From NCBI GenBank assembly GCA_010672825.2, contig JAAHFU020000005.1, positions 62,001 to 126,000 of the forward strand: a stretch of DNA of 64,000 nt, in the 5' to 3' direction. The notes under the pieces are model-generated. The model searched no databases. It worked only from the letters and a program-made list of their open reading frames with translations, and was not told the origin of the DNA. Both the position numbers and the translations under genes were made by a program. Positions 4,204 through 56,303 of this stretch are shown piece after piece. Numbering within the stretch: position 1 is the first letter of the stretch; each line of letters opens with the position of its first letter. The stretch is from Leptolyngbya sp. SIO1E4. GTDB lineage: Bacteria > Cyanobacteriota > Cyanobacteriia > Phormidesmidales > Phormidesmidaceae.

Positions 4204-4285
4204 GCCTTTATGGTGAGTGAACGACCGCTGGGTCAAAACAGGGGCTAGGGTATGGAGTTAGGATGCGTTTACCCAGCCTATGATC
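4201..4285 (-). repeat. Degenerate copy of the TATAGC/CCCTAGACCCC dispersed repeat
   Basis: Read on the reverse strand this gap preserves the order of the intact copies: an AGCCTTT..GAGTGA end, a GGTCAAAACAGGGGCTAGGG core and a CAGCCTATG end, with many substitutions. It is assigned by eye against the intact copies at 20545 and 34941. Confidence 0.45.
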
Positions 4286-10779: not shown

Positions 10780-10850
10780 CAGATGAATAGAAACGCTTGA
10801 TGAGAGAGCGGTTGCGTTATCTGGACTGTCTTAACACAGATACGGACTGC

Positions 10851-10947
10851 TATAGCGGTATGCAGACTAATCAAGTACACCCTAGACCCCAAACCCTAGA
10901 CCCTGTCTTGGCCAAGATGTACTGGACTCAACTGAACAAAGCCATAT
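10851..10947 (+). repeat. Dispersed TATAGC repeat, intact copy A
   Basis: Begins TATAGCGGTATGCAG, has the core ACACCCTAGACCCCAAACCC, and ends ACTCAACTGAACAAAGCCATA. It shares nearly all positions with copies at 18563, 20545, 13754 (reverse) and 34941 (reverse). An apparent open frame across it (10797-11090) is not a gene. Confidence 0.85.
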
Positions 10948-11125
10948 ATCCGAATGCAAACTGGGATATATCGCAAAAGGACCATCCGCCCTTTCCGGAT
11001 TTGGTTAACTTCCAGCTGGATTCTTACTGTACTTGGCAAAAATCATTACCCGACCAAGTCTACAGCTCAGAGTTTCAGGCCAGGCGTTAGTGCCGAGTGC
11101 CCTTTATCATTTCTTGGAGTTTTCC

Positions 11126-11914: not shown

Positions 11915-12473
11915 CGGTAGCAAAGTCAGCAGAATCAATACAGCCTTTTTTAGCTGAGTGAGGTATATCCTGGTCGCAATAGGGGCTAGGGTCTGGGGTT
12001 TGGGGTCTAATGCGAGTACTTCATCAGAGTGAGAAACGCTGTAAAAGGCTCGCTAAGAGGACGGTGGAGTGATCTGAACTGTCTCAACACGAACGTGTAC
12101 TGCGGTGCGGTCAAGTCGAACTAGTCCGTAGGGACAGCAAACAGAATTTTCCATTTACCCCCTTTGTCTCCCCCAGTGGGGGGCAAAGCTGCCTCCCCAC
12201 TGGGGCTACTGCTTATGCATAATCCCAATTCTCCAAAGCAGCACTACACATCGCCACCCCACCGCCTGCGGCACCTCCCCTTGCCAAGGGGAGGTTGGGA
12301 GGGGTTTGATCTGTAGCTTTAGAAACGAGAACTGGCATGACTCCGCCTTACTAAAGGAGAGAACTGGGTGTCCCTCTTGCGTTTGGCGCAGCCTGCCCGG
12401 AGGGCTTAGGAGGGATTAAGGGAGGTGATCCCGCATGTCTACGCATCAAGCGAGATGGGGGTACTAGCGAAGC
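11915..12473. other. 559 bp intergenic region rich in short repeats
   Basis: No gene is supported. It contains a degenerate dispersed repeat (11939-12028), a CTCCCCCAGTGGGGGG-type palindromic stretch around 12168-12210, and CCTCCCCTTGCCAAGGGGAGG around 12275-12297 (9-bp arms). The latter two are of the GC-rich interspersed-palindrome kind common between cyanobacterial genes. The convergent ends of the FecR and gap1 genes mean terminators must lie here. Confidence 0.5.
11939..12028 (-). repeat. Degenerate dispersed TATAGC repeat
   Basis: On the reverse orientation it follows the intact copies: TACAGCCTTTTTTAGCTGAG at the left end, then ATCCTGGTCGCAATAGGGGC and GGTTTGGGGTCTAATG in the core. 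The right end has decayed. Confidence 0.55.
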
Positions 12474-13973
<1,500 letters not shown>

Positions 13974-18562: not shown

Positions 18563-18672
18563 TATAGCGGTATGCAGGCTAATCAAGTACACCCTAGACC
18601 CCAAACCCTAGACCCCAAACCCTAGACCCTACCTCGGCCAAGATGTACCGGACTCAACTGAACAGAGCCATA
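18563..18672 (+). repeat. Dispersed TATAGC repeat, intact copy B with core expansion
   Basis: Same ends as the other copies (TATAGCGGTATGCAGGC and CTGAACAGAGCCATA), but the CCCTAGACCCCAAA unit of the core is duplicated once more, making it 110 bp instead of about 96. Confidence 0.85.
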
Positions 18673-20544: not shown

Positions 20545-20640
20545 TATAGCGGTATGCAGGCTAATCAAGCACACCCTAGACCCCAAACCCTAGACCCTGT
20601 CCTGACCCAGATGTACTGGACTCAACTGAACAAGGCTATA
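20545..20640 (+). repeat. Dispersed TATAGC repeat, intact copy C
   Basis: 96 bp from TATAGCGGTATGCAGGC to CTCAACTGAACAAGGCTATA. The outer 6 bp at each end are exact inverted repeats (TATAGC/GCTATA), and the outer 15 bp match imperfectly. Confidence 0.88.
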
Positions 20641-34648: not shown

Positions 34649-35129
34649 AGGTTTGTGAGGTGACGCTCACTAGCAATTTAGCCGGGCTCGGGAGCGATCG
34701 CCAAGGGGAAAATAGTAGACCGCTTGCACGAATAAAATAAGGCCCTCTCCTGTCCCCCAGAATTGATACTGCTGGCGAAATATTTCGCAAACTTGCGAAC
34801 TTACTGGAAGCCCCCTAAATCCCCCAATGCTGGGGGCCTCGGAAACCTTGATGCCACTGCCAATGTTTCTAACTGTTGATTTCGCCATTGGTATCAGAAT
34901 TTGGGGATACAGGGGGCCAATGCGTAAGTCCTAATCAATTTATAGCCTTGTTCAGTTGAGTCCAGTACATCCAGGCCAAGACAGGGTCTAGGGTTTGGGG
35001 TCTAGGGTGTGCTTGATTAGCCTGCATACTGCTATAGATGTGCCTTGCTGACATCTACAGCGGGCAACACGCTACAGATTCCTGGAGCCGCAACCCGGTG
35101 ATCCTGAGAGAACTTTATAATCGTTAACG
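34649..35129. other. 481 bp intergenic region between divergent genes, one dispersed repeat
   Basis: Holds the intact repeat at 34941-35036 and a CCCCCAATGCTGGGGG hairpin near 34828, of the interspersed GC-rich type. No gene recognised; the antisense open frames of 61-72 codons here have no family features. Confidence 0.5.
34941..35036 (-). repeat. Dispersed TATAGC repeat, intact copy E
   Basis: 96 bp, reverse orientation, from TATAGCCTTGTTCAGTTGAG to GCCTGCATACTGCTATA, with GGTCTAGGGTTTGGGGTCT core. Nearly identical to copy C. Confidence 0.88.
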
Positions 35130-42361: not shown

Positions 42362-45300
42362 ATGGTGTTAGACATTCTTGCTGCGATCGGTTTGAAGGAA
42401 ACGGGCGGTTACGTTGCCAAAGAAGTCTTACTGCCGCTCCTGCAAGGCAGTCTGGAAGACTACACCCAGGACTTTTTCAAGGGCTGTGTGACGGATGTGG
42501 TGGGGTTGGCGAGCCAAGCGCCTGTGCAAAAGGCGATGGGTGAGGCGCTGAAAACGTTTGTTGAGCTAGTGGAGGAAGAGCTGAAATTTCAGGGCTGCAC
42601 CGGGGCAGAGATTCGTGATTTTTATGAAGTGCCGCTGCGCCAGTTGATGAAAGACGCCGATGTGAAGGCGACCTTGGGACGAGCGTTTGAACCAGATTGC
42701 CGCAGTATTGAGGCCGAGGTGCTGACGCTGCAGTGGCAAGCATTGGACTTGCGAACCCTGCCCGACGAGTTTGACTGGTCGCAAATCGGCAAACAGTATG
42801 TGCGGGCCGTGAAAGGCATTTTGCGGGGGTCTGCTGAACTACGAGACTTGCTGAAGCTGCACAACCAGGAAGCCATGCGCCAGGGCATTGAGGAACTGGT
42901 AGGCATTCCCCCTGATTTTGATTTGCGCAAGTATCAGGAAACCTTGCGGGAGCAGTACGGCAATCTGAAGCTGGAATCACTGGACACCACAGGTTATGCC
43001 TACAACGACTTGAAGCTGTGGCGCATGTTCATTCCTCAAGATGTGCGGACGTGCCAGGAATTTAACCCCAAGGTGTACGAAATCCCCAAGGAGAAGCTAA
43101 AGGAGCTGCAGCAGCGGGGGGAACTGGATGCGGAAGCCCTGGAAGCAGCACAGATTGAAGCCTACCGCAAGACCTATGTGGAGCAGCCGATCCAAACTGT
43201 GCTGGAGGTGATTGGCCGCACTGCGGGGAGGGGGCAGCGCAGTCGTCCGGTGGCGGACTATGCCGTGGTACTGGGAGATCCAGGATCGGGGAAGTCGACG
43301 CTGCTGCAGTATGTGGCGTTGCAGTGGGCCGAACAGCCCATCCGCGATCTGAAGGAACTGGCCCAGCGACCGCTGCCGCTGCTGATTGAATTGCGTAAGT
43401 ATGCCCGCGATCGCCATGACCAAAAATGCAGCAGCATGGTGGCCTATTTGCACCAGGGGGATATTGCCTGTCGGCTGAATCAGCAACGACTCCATGAGGT
43501 GCTGACGGCAGGGAATGCCATTGCCTTGTTTGATGGCATTGATGAGGTGTTTGACCCGAAACTGCGGGAAGTGGTGGTAACGGATATTCACCGCTTTACC
43601 AACAATTACCCCCAGGTGCAGACGGTGGTGACGTCGCGGTGGCTGGGGTACAAGGCCCAAACCTTGCGGGATGCGGGATTTCAGCACTACATGCTGCAAG
43701 ACCTGACGGATGAGCAGATTACAGACTTTATTGAGCGGTGGCACGACCAGACGTTTCTGGAAGGGGCAGACAAGGTACGTAAGCGGGGGCGGCTACACAA
43801 GGCGATTCGCGAGTCGAAGGCGATTCGGGAGTTGGCGGGGAATCCACTGCTGCTGACGATGATGGCGATTTTGAACCGCAATCAAGAGCTACCGAGGGAT
43901 CGACCGGAGCTGTATAGCCAGGCCTCGCGGGTGTTGTTGCACCAGTGGGACGTGGAGAGGAATTTGGTTGAGCAGCGGTTAGATCCGGTGACGATTGACT
44001 ATCGGGACAAACAGGCGATGCTGCGCCAGGTGGCGTTTCACATGCAGTCGGGCGAGGCGGGACTGGCCGGAAACATCATCAGCGCCCAAGACCTGGAAAG
44101 CATTTTGACGGACTATTTGAAATCCATTGATGTGGAGCAGCCGCGAGATGTAGCCCGGCGGATGATTCGTCAACTGCGGGAACGGAATTTTATCTTGTGT
44201 TACCTCGGGGCGGAAAATTACGCATTTGTGCATCGCACATTTTTAGAGTTTTTTGCGGCGTGGGCCTTTGTTTGGGAGTTTAAGGAAACTCAGACAATTC
44301 AGTTTGAAGAATTACGAGATCAGACATTTGGGGCTCACTGGCAGGAAGAAAGTTGGCAGGAGGTGCTGCGGCTGATTGCGGGAATGATTGAGGCCAAATT
44401 TGTAGGCAATCTGATCACGTTTTTGCTCGACCAGAAGGTTGACAAAGAAAAGTTTGCCGATGGAAATAACAATCTTGAACGTGAGGGACTCAGCAATTTA
44501 CTCTTAGCTGCGAACTGCCTGTCAGAAGTTCGCAATCGCAAAGAGCTTTCCCCCATAGCAAATCAACTTTTTCAAGCACTGAAGGCTGAAGCCGAAGATC
44601 AATATCCCTACACCTTAGACCAGGGTGCTTCGGAAGCCCTGATTGGGGTTATTGTCGGTGCTTGGCGAGAGCACATTGATTTACTGCCTCTCCTTAAGAG
44701 CTGGATTAATGTTGATCCCAGTTCTTACATTCCAGAGTCATCTGTGGCTGCGATCGCCCAAAACTGGGTTACTTCATTTGACACTTTACCTTGGCTCAAG
44801 ACGCGGGCCCAAGAAGACGAGGATAAAGATGTTCGGATGGCGGCGGTGCAGGCGTTAGCCAAAGGGTGGAAAACCGACCCCGATACCTTGCCCATCCTCA
44901 AGACGCGGGTCCAAGAAGACGAGGATAACTTTGTTCGGATGGTGGCCGTGCAGGAGTTAGCCAAAGGGTGGAAAACCGACCCCGATACCTTGCCCATCCT
45001 CAAGACGTGGGTCCAAGAAGACGAGGATAACTTTGTTCGGATGGTGGCCGTGCAGGAGTTAGCCAAAGGGTGGAAAACCGACCCTGATACCTTGCCCTGG
45101 CTCAAGACGCGGGCCCAAGAAGACGAGGATAACTTTGTTCGGAGGGCGGCGGTGCAGGAGTTAGCCAAAGGGTGGAAAACCGACCCCGATACCTTGCCCT
45201 GGCTCAAGACGCGGGCCCAAGAAGACGAGGATAACGTTGTTCGGATGGCGGCGGTGCAGGAGTTAGCCAAAGGGTGGAAAACCGACCCCGATACCTTGCC

Positions 45301-46831
45301 CTGGCTCAAGACGCGGGCCCAAGAAGACGAGGATAAAGATGTTCGGATGGCGGCAGTAGAAGCTTTAGCCAAAGGGTGGAAAACCGACCCCGATACCTTG
45401 CCCTGGCTCAAGACGCGGGCCCAAGAAGACGAGGATAAAGATGTTCGGATGGCGGCAGTAGAAGCTTTAGCCAAAGGGTGGAAAACCGACCCCGATACCT
45501 TGCCCTGGCTCAAGACGCGGGCCCAAGAAGACGAGGATAAAGATGTTCGGATGGCGGCGGTGCAGGAGTTAGCCAAAGGGTGGAAAACCGACCCCGATAC
45601 CTTGCCCATTCTCAAGACGCGGGCCCAAGAAGACGACAATTACGCTGTTCGGAGGGCGGCGGTGCAGGAGTTAGCCAAAGGGTGGAAAACCGACCCCGAT
45701 ACCTTGCCCATTCTCAAGACGCGGGCCCAAGAAGACGAGGATAACTTTGTTCGGAGGGCGGCGGTGCAGGAGTTAGCCAAAGGGTGGAAAACCGACCCCG
45801 ATACCTTGCCCTGGCTCAAGACGCGGGCCCAAGAAGACGACAATTACGCTGTTCGGATGGCGGCGGTGCAGGAGTTAGCCAAAGGGTGGAAAACCGACCC
45901 CGATACCTTGCCCTGGCTCAAGACGCGGGCCCAAGAAGACGAGGATAAAGATGTTCGGGTGGCGGCAGTAGAAGCTTTAGCCAAAGGGTGGAAAACCGAC
46001 CCCGATACCTTGCCCTGGCTCAAGACGCGGGCCCAAGAAGACGAGGATAAAGATGTTCGGATGGCGGCAGTAGAAGCTTTAGCCAAAGGGTGGAAAACCG
46101 ACCCCGATACCTTGCCCTGGCTCAAGACGCGGGCCCAAGAAGACGAGGATAAAGATGTTCGGATGGCGGCGGTGCAGGAGTTAGCCAAAGGGTGGAAAAC
46201 CGACCCCGATACCTTGCCCATTCTCAAGACGTGGGCCCAAGAAGACGACAATTACGCTGTTCGGAGGGCGGCGGTGCAGGAGTTAGCCAAAGGGTGGAAA
46301 ACCGACCCCGATACCTTGCCCATTCTCAAGACGCGGGCCCAAGAAGACGAGGATAACTTTGTTCGGAGGGCGGCGGTGCAGGAGTTAGCCAAAGGGTGGA
46401 AAACCGACCCCGATACCTTGCCCATTCTCAAGACGCGGGCCCAAGAAGACGAGGATAAAGATGTTCGGATGGCGGCAGTAGAAGCTTTAGCCAAAGGGTG
46501 GAAAACCGACCCCGATACCTTGCCCTGGCTCAAGACGCGAGCCCAAGAAGACGACAATAGTGATGTTCGGAGAGTGGCGCTGCAGGAGTTAGCTGATAAC
46601 TGGATAAAAACACCTGGAGTATTAGGTTTCCTGGTTTCCTGCTTTCTGAATGATTCAGCCTTACAACCTGAAGAACTAAAGGGCCTTGAGCGTCTTGAAG
46701 TTTTGAAAAAGTTACTGCAGGAAAACGATGTACCTGAGGTGCAAAAGCTAGAAATTCTGCAAGACCGTGCCCAAAACGACAGTGACGAACAGCTTAGGAA
46801 GTGGGCGGAGAAGCAGATAGAGGAATTATGA
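42362..46831 (+). CDS. NACHT NTPase with a 17-unit HEAT-like repeat array (NLR-like)
   Basis: A 1489-residue STAND/NLR-type protein. Residues 1-280 form an all-helical N-terminal region of no recognised effector family. The NACHT ATPase (about 290-620) has Walker A GDPGSGKST (305-313), Walker B IALFDGIDE (387-395), and downstream GNPLLLTMMAILNRNQELP plus the winged-helix-like part FVHRTFLEFFAAWAFVWEF. A helical linker follows, then from residue 832 to 1409 seventeen 34-residue HEAT/armadillo-like repeats of the form LAKGWKTDPDTLP..LKT, with one degenerate repeat before and after. The C-terminus is charged and helical. NACHT proteins with repeat sensors act as phage-defence or signalling switches in bacteria; that role here is inference. 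Confidence 0.88.
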   Translation: MVLDILAAIGLKETGGYVAKEVLLPLLQGSLEDYTQDFFKGCVTDVVGLASQAPVQKAMGEALKTFVELVEEELKFQGCTGAEIRDFYEVPLRQLMKDADVKATLGRAFEPDCRSIEAEVLTLQWQALDLRTLPDEFDWSQIGKQYVRAVKGILRGSAELRDLLKLHNQEAMRQGIEELVGIPPDFDLRKYQETLREQYGNLKLESLDTTGYAYNDLKLWRMFIPQDVRTCQEFNPKVYEIPKEKLKELQQRGELDAEALEAAQIEAYRKTYVEQPIQTVLEVIGRTAGRGQRSRPVADYAVVLGDPGSGKSTLLQYVALQWAEQPIRDLKELAQRPLPLLIELRKYARDRHDQKCSSMVAYLHQGDIACRLNQQRLHEVLTAGNAIALFDGIDEVFDPKLREVVVTDIHRFTNNYPQVQTVVTSRWLGYKAQTLRDAGFQHYMLQDLTDEQITDFIERWHDQTFLEGADKVRKRGRLHKAIRESKAIRELAGNPLLLTMMAILNRNQELPRDRPELYSQASRVLLHQWDVERNLVEQRLDPVTIDYRDKQAMLRQVAFHMQSGEAGLAGNIISAQDLESILTDYLKSIDVEQPRDVARRMIRQLRERNFILCYLGAENYAFVHRTFLEFFAAWAFVWEFKETQTIQFEELRDQTFGAHWQEESWQEVLRLIAGMIEAKFVGNLITFLLDQKVDKEKFADGNNNLEREGLSNLLLAANCLSEVRNRKELSPIANQLFQALKAEAEDQYPYTLDQGASEALIGVIVGAWREHIDLLPLLKSWINVDPSSYIPESSVAAIAQNWVTSFDTLPWLKTRAQEDEDKDVRMAAVQALAKGWKTDPDTLPILKTRVQEDEDNFVRMVAVQELAKGWKTDPDTLPILKTWVQEDEDNFVRMVAVQELAKGWKTDPDTLPWLKTRAQEDEDNFVRRAAVQELAKGWKTDPDTLPWLKTRAQEDEDNVVRMAAVQELAKGWKTDPDTLPWLKTRAQEDEDKDVRMAAVEALAKGWKTDPDTLPWLKTRAQEDEDKDVRMAAVEALAKGWKTDPDTLPWLKTRAQEDEDKDVRMAAVQELAKGWKTDPDTLPILKTRAQEDDNYAVRRAAVQELAKGWKTDPDTLPILKTRAQEDEDNFVRRAAVQELAKGWKTDPDTLPWLKTRAQEDDNYAVRMAAVQELAKGWKTDPDTLPWLKTRAQEDEDKDVRVAAVEALAKGWKTDPDTLPWLKTRAQEDEDKDVRMAAVEALAKGWKTDPDTLPWLKTRAQEDEDKDVRMAAVQELAKGWKTDPDTLPILKTWAQEDDNYAVRRAAVQELAKGWKTDPDTLPILKTRAQEDEDNFVRRAAVQELAKGWKTDPDTLPILKTRAQEDEDKDVRMAAVEALAKGWKTDPDTLPWLKTRAQEDDNSDVRRVALQELADNWIKTPGVLGFLVSCFLNDSALQPEELKGLERLEVLKKLLQENDVPEVQKLEILQDRAQNDSDEQLRKWAEKQIEEL
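44855..46588 (+). repeat. Tandem array of 17 x 102 bp HEAT-like units
   Basis: Period 102 bp (34 codons), verified by spacing of the GTTAGCCAAAGGGTGG landmark (44854, 44956 and on to 46588). Units are nearly identical at DNA level except at a few codons: W/I at unit position 14, R/W at 18, A/V at 19, the loop at 22-26 (EDEDKD, DDNYA, EDNF, EDNV and DNSD forms), M/R/V at 29, and QE/EA/QA at the end. The antisense strand stays open over long parts of it; those frames are not genes. Confidence 0.97.
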
Positions 46832-47553: not shown

Positions 47554-47620
47554 ATAGCGTTGTTCTGTTGAGTTTAGGAGATCTCGGTCAAGACGGGGTT
47601 TAGGGTCTGGGGTGTACTTT
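47554..47620 (-). repeat. Truncated dispersed TATAGC repeat
   Basis: Reverse orientation: ATAGCGTTGTTCTGTTGAG at the left, ATCTCGGTCAAGACGGGGTT and AGGGTCTGGGGTGTAC in the core, but the GCATACCGC end is missing. It lies 12 bp after rnpB. Confidence 0.55.
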
Positions 47621-47819
47621 TGCCCTCTGCCTGCCTGCCCAAAACGTGACCTGTAACGTCCCCATGAGATTTTCTGCCCTCTGCCTTCTCCTAAGAAACA
47701 CAATCTAATCGATGCTCAAAACCTGAGATTGTCGCCAGACAAACGACAATTGTGTTTCTTCCATTTCTAACGGGCAGCGTCAGCGCTCGTTAATAGCTGC
47801 CTTCTGCCTTACACAAATC

Positions 47820-55727: not shown

Positions 55728-56303
55728 CTAAACACGCAAATAATGCATCCAACAGGCTGTTTGCTCTGGGTTCAGCCTTAAGCGATGATGAAAATCCGCC
55801 CAGTTAGCAAAGGGCGATCGCCGACGCTCGTTCAAAATGCGTTCCAACAAAGCGGCAGACACTCCGGGTAATGCTTGCAGTTGAGCCACTGTAGCTTGAT
55901 TAACGTGGACTGGGGCGAGGGCCACAGGGCTCACAGGATCGTAATAACAAAACTGCAAGAGGGGCTGCAGAGGCATTAAGCGGCCGCAGGGAATGCCCAA
56001 AGCAGCGGCAATATCTTCAATGCAGTGAAAGGATACGCCACTTTGGCTCAGGGTCGTTAGCGTTCGAGCCTGATGAATGGAAATGCCCGGAAGACGCAGC
56101 CAATCATCGACGGTTGCTTGGTTCACATCAATCTGAATCCCTAAGGCAGCGGCAATCGGAACCTCTTCTAACGAGTGCAAGCGACCTAGCGGATCACGCT
56201 GCAGGCGATCGCGGGCAGGATGAAGCCGTCGTTGCCAAGATTGCACACTCCAATGGGTTAATCGGCGCAGCGTTTGCAGAAAAAACCAAGATTTGTCAGA
56301 CAT
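55728..56303 (-). CDS. ComEA-like double helix-hairpin-helix protein
   Basis: A 191-residue protein with two helix-hairpin-helix units: VNQATVDDWLRLPGISIHQA and VNQATVAQLQALPGVSAALL, with VNQAT starts typical of ComEA. HhH pairs bind DNA non-specifically. There is no membrane anchor or signal peptide, which separates it from true competence ComEA. The N-terminal 40 residues are basic (WQRRLHPARDRLQRDPLGR). Leftward; its stop lies 104 bp from the signal peptidase stop. Confidence 0.82.
   Translation of the reverse strand: MSDKSWFFLQTLRRLTHWSVQSWQRRLHPARDRLQRDPLGRLHSLEEVPIAAALGIQIDVNQATVDDWLRLPGISIHQARTLTTLSQSGVSFHCIEDIAAALGIPCGRLMPLQPLLQFCYYDPVSPVALAPVHVNQATVAQLQALPGVSAALLERILNERRRSPFANWADFHHRLRLNPEQTACWMHYLRV

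Follow-up and report, generated by a model that had tools for sequence, protein, structure and literature searches.

The repeat at 20545-20640 and its copies in the window

What kind of element is the 96-bp sequence at positions 20545-20640, which recurs in the Leptolyngbya sp. SIO1E4 DNA analyzed here: a mobile element, a small RNA or a tandem-repeat array bordered by chance by similar flanks? The stretch analyzed (the window) comprises 64 kb (C5:62001-126000) of a genome of 8.22 Mb in 12 contigs. A first-pass annotation had taken the repeats for miniature inverted-repeat transposable elements (MITEs). Our analyses support this reading, and neither RNA folding nor copy number nor conservation of the ends, each of which could have told against it, did so. 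We put at roughly 0.93 the probability that the repeats form a MITE family of the IS630/Tc1-mariner superfamily which is mobilized in trans by a transposase of the lineage here called IS-X, or by an IS630 transposase with like ends.

Starting from the copy at 20545, an iterated nucleotide profile recovered the eight copies proposed for the window, five intact and three degenerate, and at E values up to 1 found no ninth in the window. Six are full-length and two are degenerate and truncated at an end. The copy at 20545-20640 lies on the plus strand, belongs to subfamily A and has the ends TATAGC...GCTATA. Its heptamer core (20574-20597, plus strand) is CCCTAGA CCCCAAA CCCTAGA CCC, which reads GGG N4 GGG N3 GGGG N4 GGG on the opposite strand and thus constitutes a G-quadruplex motif. 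Two further intact copies of subfamily A, at 13754-13849 and 34941-35036, are on the minus strand. The intact copy at 10851-10946 (plus strand) has GCCATA as its right end and the one at 18563-18672 (plus strand) carries a core expanded by one 14-bp unit pair. The divergent full-length copy at 11940-12043 (minus strand) belongs to subfamily D (TACAGCGTTTCTCACTCTGATGAAG...) and its ends resemble those of another IS630 lineage. Both truncated copies, at 4206-4279 and, left-truncated, at 47554-47631, are on the minus strand; the latter adjoins the RNase P RNA gene (Rfam RF00010; 47120-47544) and begins 10 bp downstream of it. Both ends are bordered by TA in five of the six full-length copies, the exception being 13754-13849, where GA replaces TA on one side.

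The copies had been said to lie between genes only; this is so for seven of the eight when ORFs of at least 80 aa are considered, but the copy at 10851 lies inside a 98-aa ORF (10797-11090), which is probably spurious. That the window is free of transposase genes holds for the IS630 type, since none of the 21 DDE_3 (IS630-type) matches of the genome is on contig C5. The window also contains a 102-bp unit repeated 18 times in tandem (44678-46711), corresponding to 34-aa repeats within the ORF at 42362-46831 on the plus strand.

Copy number, subfamilies and element structure

Profile searches of C1:1-1,600,000 together with the window gave 223 matches, of which 124 are full length. In C1:1-1,600,000, 184 merged copies (E up to 0.001) make up 1.0% of the sequence and occur in both orientations (103 plus, 81 minus), as had been noted for the window. 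A 400-kb sample from elsewhere in the genome, counted with a simpler merging rule than the 1.6 Mb, contained 23 copies, or 58 per Mb. An 18-base core pattern (up to 2 mismatches) matched the whole genome 193 times, 64 of these within C1:1-1,600,000, and its reversed control 0 times. Extrapolation from the density of C1:1-1,600,000 to about 950 copies was discarded as too high, given the sparser 400-kb sample and the share of core-pattern matches there (64/193), and a stratified estimate for the whole genome amounts to 569 copies (bootstrap 405-749). The additional copies that the MITE reading calls for therefore exist. When pairs of ends were sought with a profile trained on the ends of the MITE family and of the IS relatives described below, 120 non-overlapping pairs were found in the 1.6 Mb, compared with 0 in one simulated sequence. 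With a modal length of 96 bp (88 of the 124 full copies) and the estimated copy number, the repeat is short, non-coding and multi-copy, as is typical of MITEs.

At least four subfamilies can be distinguished by eye, A (GTATGCAGGCTAATCAAG), B (GTGTGCATTTGGATCAAG), C (GTATGCAGGCTGATCAAG) and D (GCGTTTCTCACTCTGATGAAG). TATAGC...GCTATA, initially described for all copies, is the prevailing form of the ends, but the variants TACAGC, TATCGC and GCCATA also occur. Instead of the approximately 15 bp first given, the terminal inverted repeat extends over about 30 bp and is imperfect, with 17-21 of 30 positions identical depending on the subfamily (A-D), and both ends carry an AGTACA-like box at offset 24-29. 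From left to right, the element consists of an end, a heptamer array, typically the one given above for the copy at 20545, a spacer of about 13 bp and the other end. A four-run G-quadruplex motif is present on the minus strand of the array in 88 of the 124 full copies and on the plus strand in 0 of 124.

The proposed combination of recent spread and a long history agrees with the divergence among copies. An identical twin over 88 bp exists for 15 of 61 subfamily-A copies and, going by identical twins alone, some copying would have been recent; the diverged subfamilies and the relatives in other genera and families fit a long history.

Insertion at TA and empty sites

The conservation of the ends extends to the target. 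TA is present on both sides in 88 of the 124 full copies and missing on one or both sides in 36, many diverged copies among them. Three bases ahead of the left TA, A is present in 60/124 (p ~5e-9), and T is present three bases past the right TA in 61/124 (p ~1e-9); G adjacent to the left TA or C adjacent to the right one is rare (7/124 each; p 7e-9), so that the preferred target is palindromic.

To find uninterrupted counterparts, flanks were joined and searched for in the 1.6 Mb, in the window and at other loci, which also gave many self-matches and matches to other repeats; nine within-genome alignments were chosen by hand from the joined-flank matches. Four of the nine are clean empty sites, with no gap at the junction and TA in the partner (C1:1297094, 438529, 166308 and 142964). 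The alignment for C1:110405 is free of gaps as well and its aligned partner has TC, another copy of that repeat having TA. Elsewhere on C1, TA is missing at 56183, gaps occur at the junctions of 1380417 and 74161, and the alignment for 525933 is ambiguous. At C1:654609-654704 (locus L097), a MITE splits the repeat GTTTCAATCCCCTTGCGGGGAATTAGGTGATTGCGAC of a CRISPR array, and in the other units the second half is unbroken and contains a single TA. The target-site duplication that the first-pass annotation proposed to look for is thus TA, and sites with a single TA persist in the genome.

In three of the nine alignments (1297094, 110405 and 438529), the heptamer MITE had landed in a second MITE-like family. 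Members of this IS630-type family, at C1:281376-281470, near 492012 and near 711110, have TACAGC ends and a GGTACA inner box and lack a heptamer core. At locus L049 (about 1766-1897), an IS630 fragment of a different type has a MITE with an expanded core at its broken end.

Small size, intergenic sites and high copy number would equally suit repeats of the REP/ERIC/SDR type that spread by another route, such as RAYT-dependent or IS200/IS605 single-strand transposition. For single-strand transposition by HUH enzymes, however, TA duplication, a palindromic TA target and a match to IS630 ends are unexpected. TA is duplicated at the clean sites, no fold of the single-stranded DNA exceeded that of shuffled sequences, and the combination of subterminal hairpins and no target duplication that marks IS200/IS605-type elements was not what we found. 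We consider such a route extremely unlikely.

Placement relative to genes and RNA folding

With genes approximated by ORFs of 100 aa or more, we assessed 140 near-full copies. ORF overlap was below 20% in 130 of them, as compared to 14.8% of random 96-mers, 6 lay to at least 80% within ORFs and 4 were intermediate. Excision of the copy restored an ORF of 120 aa or more in 7/140 cases, whereas 555 of 1000 random sites are read through. Among the 130 intergenic copies, 56 are in convergent gaps (18.7% expected by gap length, p 2e-10) and 15 in divergent gaps (30% expected, p 1e-6), the expected shares being derived from gaps of at least 100 bp. This intergenic and convergent bias probably arises because harmful insertions have been removed by selection.

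The enrichment in convergent gaps would also fit a terminator, and hence the view that the repeat serves between genes as a functional small RNA or as a regulatory element (a terminator, sRNA or attenuator). The minus-strand RNA of the copy at 20545 indeed folded slightly better than shuffled sequences (z -1.69), but the other seven of the eight single folds, obtained for two copies, had z values from -1.19 to +1.14. RNAalifold predicted 0 pairs on both strands for an alignment of 28 diverse copies, so that no conserved RNA fold emerged. This alignment comprised 23 of 40 diverse copies of the genome and 5 copies of Oscillatoria sp. CS-180 (G022); among the 17 representatives left out are the shorter copies and several that are strongly diverged. 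At gathering thresholds, Rfam models had no match over the repeats, the RNase P RNA being their sole match in the window. The empty sites with a single TA point to insertion, and this, like the occurrence in both orientations, argues against an RNA element, which we therefore regard as very unlikely.

IS-X, a putative parent element

A transposase-coding relative with similar ends, which the first reading had suggested looking for, exists elsewhere in the genome, but it is represented by two copies, both broken. These IS-X copies lie at L043:503-2033 and at C1:2002287-2005144 (across loci L041 and L042). The element encodes a C-terminal DDE_3 domain (E 4e-32) and an N-terminal HTH_32 domain (E 1.5e-10), and a stop in the reading frame of the HTH part is common to both copies. 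The copy in L043 exceeds its relatives in length by about 500 bp and includes an ORF of foreign appearance; the ends of the copy on C1 are 2.86 kb apart and its 3' part is interrupted.

Of 63 genomes belonging to the same family, 17 contain matches to a DDE piece of IS-X (E up to 1e-40), the own genome being one of them. In G022 (locus L154) and in Leptolyngbya sp. SIOISBB (G039, L153), the IS-X transposase is encoded by two ORFs that meet at an A9G run; in Filamentous cyanobacterium CCT1 (G050, L152), a fused frame of 315 aa has A8G. Read from these sequences, the difference suggests that the two-ORF form may be expressed by programmed slippage. An end scan, in which one locus was counted twice and TATAGC on the 5' side received a bonus, yielded 31 rows; in 27 of them TATAGC or TACAGC starts both of the IS ends found, and most of the 27 also show a GTACA-like box around offset 25.

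For a quantitative comparison of ends, the 24 bases after TATAGC were used, with 1252 other TATAGC/TACAGC sites of C1 as the null. Between the left MITE end and the own IS-X 3' end, 19 (subfamily A), 18 (B) and 17 (C) of 24 positions agree, as compared to a null with a mean of 6 and a maximum of 14-15. The match of the right MITE end to the 5' end of the own IS-X is modest, with 10-12/24 for A-C and a null maximum of 13-14; with the IS-X of G022, the right end shares 12-15/24. Subfamily D fits the IS630 at locus L172 of genome G014 at 19/24 on the left and 17/24 on the right, and IS-X at 11-13 on the left, but its null maximum is higher (21 left, 17 right of 24), which makes this match less exclusive. 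Other repeats with those ends in C1 are probably the reason for the high null. For the MITE of genome G006, the best partner over both ends is the IS630 of G016, a genome of the same genus, with 15 and 17 of 24 positions shared. We also considered three further IS630 groups as helpers, the L039, L041 and L051 types of the own genome, and set them aside, as they reached at most 12/24 with A-D.

The MITE therefore shares its ends with IS630 elements, strongly on the left and more weakly on the right, and inserts at TA, as expected for an IS630 derivative. IS-X is the likely parent of the family, and the pattern of end matches is what would be expected if MITE subfamilies track different helper transposases.

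We propose that the MITE is acted on in trans by an IS-X-type DDE transposase, or by an IS630 transposase of the same end specificity, which would bind both imperfect 30-bp ends (TATAGCGGT.TGCA....ATCAAG.ACA and its counterpart). The counterpart of the left MITE end would be the 3' end of IS-X; that of the right MITE end would, with less clarity, be the 5' end. The 96-bp element would be cut out and pasted at a TA, which would be duplicated. Selection would then remove most copies in genes and between divergent genes, those outside genes would persist and drift neutrally, and the heptamer core would travel as a passenger, with units expanding and contracting as in other tandem repeats.

Heptamer arrays inside and outside the MITE

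The core had been called telomere-like and G-rich. It is a heptamer array of a kind known in cyanobacteria, but no link to telomeres was seen. Arrays reach 20 units in a partial copy at C1:439872 and shrink to two C-runs in the copies at 438529 and 76074 (C1), which retain their ends.

In the 1.6 Mb of C1, 197 arrays of at least three units were found, as compared to 21, 20 and 36 in second-order Markov controls. Arrays within repeat matches amount to 129/197 (at least three units), 105/122 (at least four) and 11/24 (at least five), the last fraction being low since a MITE with a long array is cut into separate matches by the profile; when flanks were read by eye, 7 of the 17 outside arrays of at least four units proved to be expanded-array MITEs. 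Four units are the mode (98 of the 122 arrays of at least four units), which can follow from the copying of one element. Counted inside versus outside the repeat on C1, CCCCAAA occurs 121/12 times, CCCCAGA 24/11 times and CCCTAGA 174/1 times.

In other genomes, arrays and MITE ends are largely separate. At 20 arrays of G039, picked from listed places with a preference for CCCTATT/CCCTGTT units, one MITE end was found (L293); this genome also has a dense cluster of CCCTATT/CCCTGTT arrays at C1:7.21-7.28 Mb. Among 22 distinct Nostoc-type CCCCAGT/CCCCAAT arrays from genomes of the class, inspection by eye revealed MITE ends at none, two of the arrays having flanks cut by contig ends. Given these samples from G039 and of the Nostoc type, we discarded a link between heptamer arrays and MITEs as a general rule. 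The idea of a host dialect shared by MITEs and free arrays holds in part: G039 uses the same units in both, and so does C1 for CCCCAAA and CCCCAGA, but not for CCCTAGA. Heptamer arrays thus exist without MITEs; in the present genome, a MITE carrying an array has multiplied.

Such widespread arrays, mostly lacking MITE ends in the samples read, lend some color to the notion that the core is an ordinary short tandemly repeated repetitive (STRR) sequence placed by chance between conserved flanks. A heptameric STRR is a 7-bp array devoid of conserved flanks, and here conserved 30-bp ends border the core. As most C1 arrays of at least four units fall within repeat matches and the copies with two C-runs still have their ends, we give this notion next to no credence.

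The distribution of the family beyond the genome was surveyed with a sequence-only model, R1, built from the same 28 copies (23 own, 5 of G022) with the core included. Because R1 contains the C-runs, it overstates the fractions of loci with arrays, and the uniform orientation of the arrays is unusable as evidence. Matches were obtained in 12 of 63 family genomes (E up to 0.001), with at least 66 each in the own genome, G022 and G006, 21 in G062, 4 in G039 and 1 or 2 in the others, and in 12 of 242 genomes of a class sample (E up to 1e-5), the own genome and G022 included. At least three C-runs in 7-nt phase are present at 13/28 family loci and 11/15 class loci, numbers subject to the bias just mentioned, from about a dozen genera including the own. 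The array units differ: CCCTAGA/CCCCAAA in the own genome, CCCTATT/CCCTGCT in G022, CCCTGTT/CCCTATT in G039, CCCTATA/CCCTACA in G006, CCCCACA in G185 and CCCTATG in G176.

That unit letters vary by genome and that CCC and the 7-nt phase persist at many loci would be in accord with a functional array, in which a G-quadruplex or i-motif aids transposition or array exchange and sources with C-runs of period 7 win; the G-quadruplex motif retained in most full copies points the same way. Variants common to at least three copies are rarer in the core (4/48 positions versus 25/120 elsewhere), but the difference is not significant (p 0.07), and private substitutions are equally frequent in the core (16/1920 base cells) and elsewhere (49/4800; p 0.58). 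Raw substitution rates 1.5-5x lower in the core of A and B had seemed to indicate constraint on the core. As private substitutions are equal and the deficit of shared variants was non-significant throughout (p 0.07 to 0.18), no selection on the core is claimed, and fewer shared core variants are at most a hint of constraint on source elements. Ends of this kind also border MITE-like elements that have no array, namely the second family of C1 described above and loci of G014, G016, G054, G068, G069, G007 and G094. At the G022 loci counted, three C-runs are found in 4/8 and two in 1/8, and the survey model, which includes the core, favors matches that bear arrays. Moreover, the near-confinement of CCCTAGA to arrays in or near the repeat argues against free exchange with outside arrays. 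We thus hold a functional array to be unlikely, and favor the core as a passenger of the MITE. The farther-reaching proposal that an old cyanobacterial MITE lineage uses a G-quadruplex heptamer array as a working part that aids its movement is more doubtful still, because arrays outside the repeat hardly ever contain CCCTAGA, the commonest unit of the MITE. If it were true, some of the G-rich heptamer arrays in cyanobacterial genomes that lack an explanation could have originated from such MITEs.

Discussion

Among the closest parallels in the literature available to us is ISY100, an IS630 element of Synechocystis PCC 6803 that duplicates TA and for which 30 bp of each end suffice for movement (PMC2170065). 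Our repeat resembles it in the TA target, the 2-bp duplication and the short imperfect terminal repeats, and the related IS-X in its DDE and HTH domains (PMC2170065). Unlike ISY100, the MITE is 96 bp long, lacks a transposase gene and has a heptamer array inside; the two were compared by description and not by end sequence.

Anabaena sp. 90 harbors 147 MITEs, of type II, which are reported to have no similarity to the ends of its IS elements (PMC3542288). These are likewise small, mostly intergenic and numerous and have inverted-repeat ends, but in the present case an IS with similar ends was found, again in a comparison by description (PMC3542288). Nezha is another cyanobacterial MITE. Among MITEs with a tandem-repeat interior, BrickBuilt of Porphyromonas gingivalis has a core of 23-nt units and 19 copies in strain ATCC 33277, and is described as always intergenic (PMC4596501). 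In contrast to this element of another phylum, the heptamer MITE has 7-nt C-run units, a far larger estimated copy number (about 569) and IS630-like ends (PMC4596501). MITEs have also been reported for Thiomargarita (PMC4853749).

A heptamer-cored or quadruplex-cored MITE of cyanobacteria was not found in the literature as covered by titles and the openings of abstracts, with few subscription journals among the sources. ERIC elements have ends and hosts that differ from those of the heptamer MITE, and are not known to contain a heptamer core. They resemble it in being bacterial MITEs of high copy number, with 30 to 711 copies according to a review (PMC10969869). The G-quadruplex heptamers of Xanthomonas and Nostoc are G-rich and intergenic like those of our family, show the same preference for four units and are of open function; in the parts of the report available to us, they are not described as parts of mobile elements (PMC4692102). 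The mechanism proposed here is ordinary for such DNA; the heptamer-array core, any function of which would be hypothetical, is the unusual part.

For this genome, the family offers a concrete route to abundant four-unit G-quadruplex heptamers, in which a founder would be copied by transposition and selection on each array would not be required. This caution applies to the present genome, as, in our samples, the Nostoc-type arrays and nearly all arrays of Leptolyngbya sp. SIOISBB are outside MITEs. More broadly, we describe an abundant bacterial MITE family that is tied to a likely IS630 parent and whose subfamily ends fit different IS630 lineages, so that the tracking of transposases by MITE ends can be studied within one cyanobacterial family.
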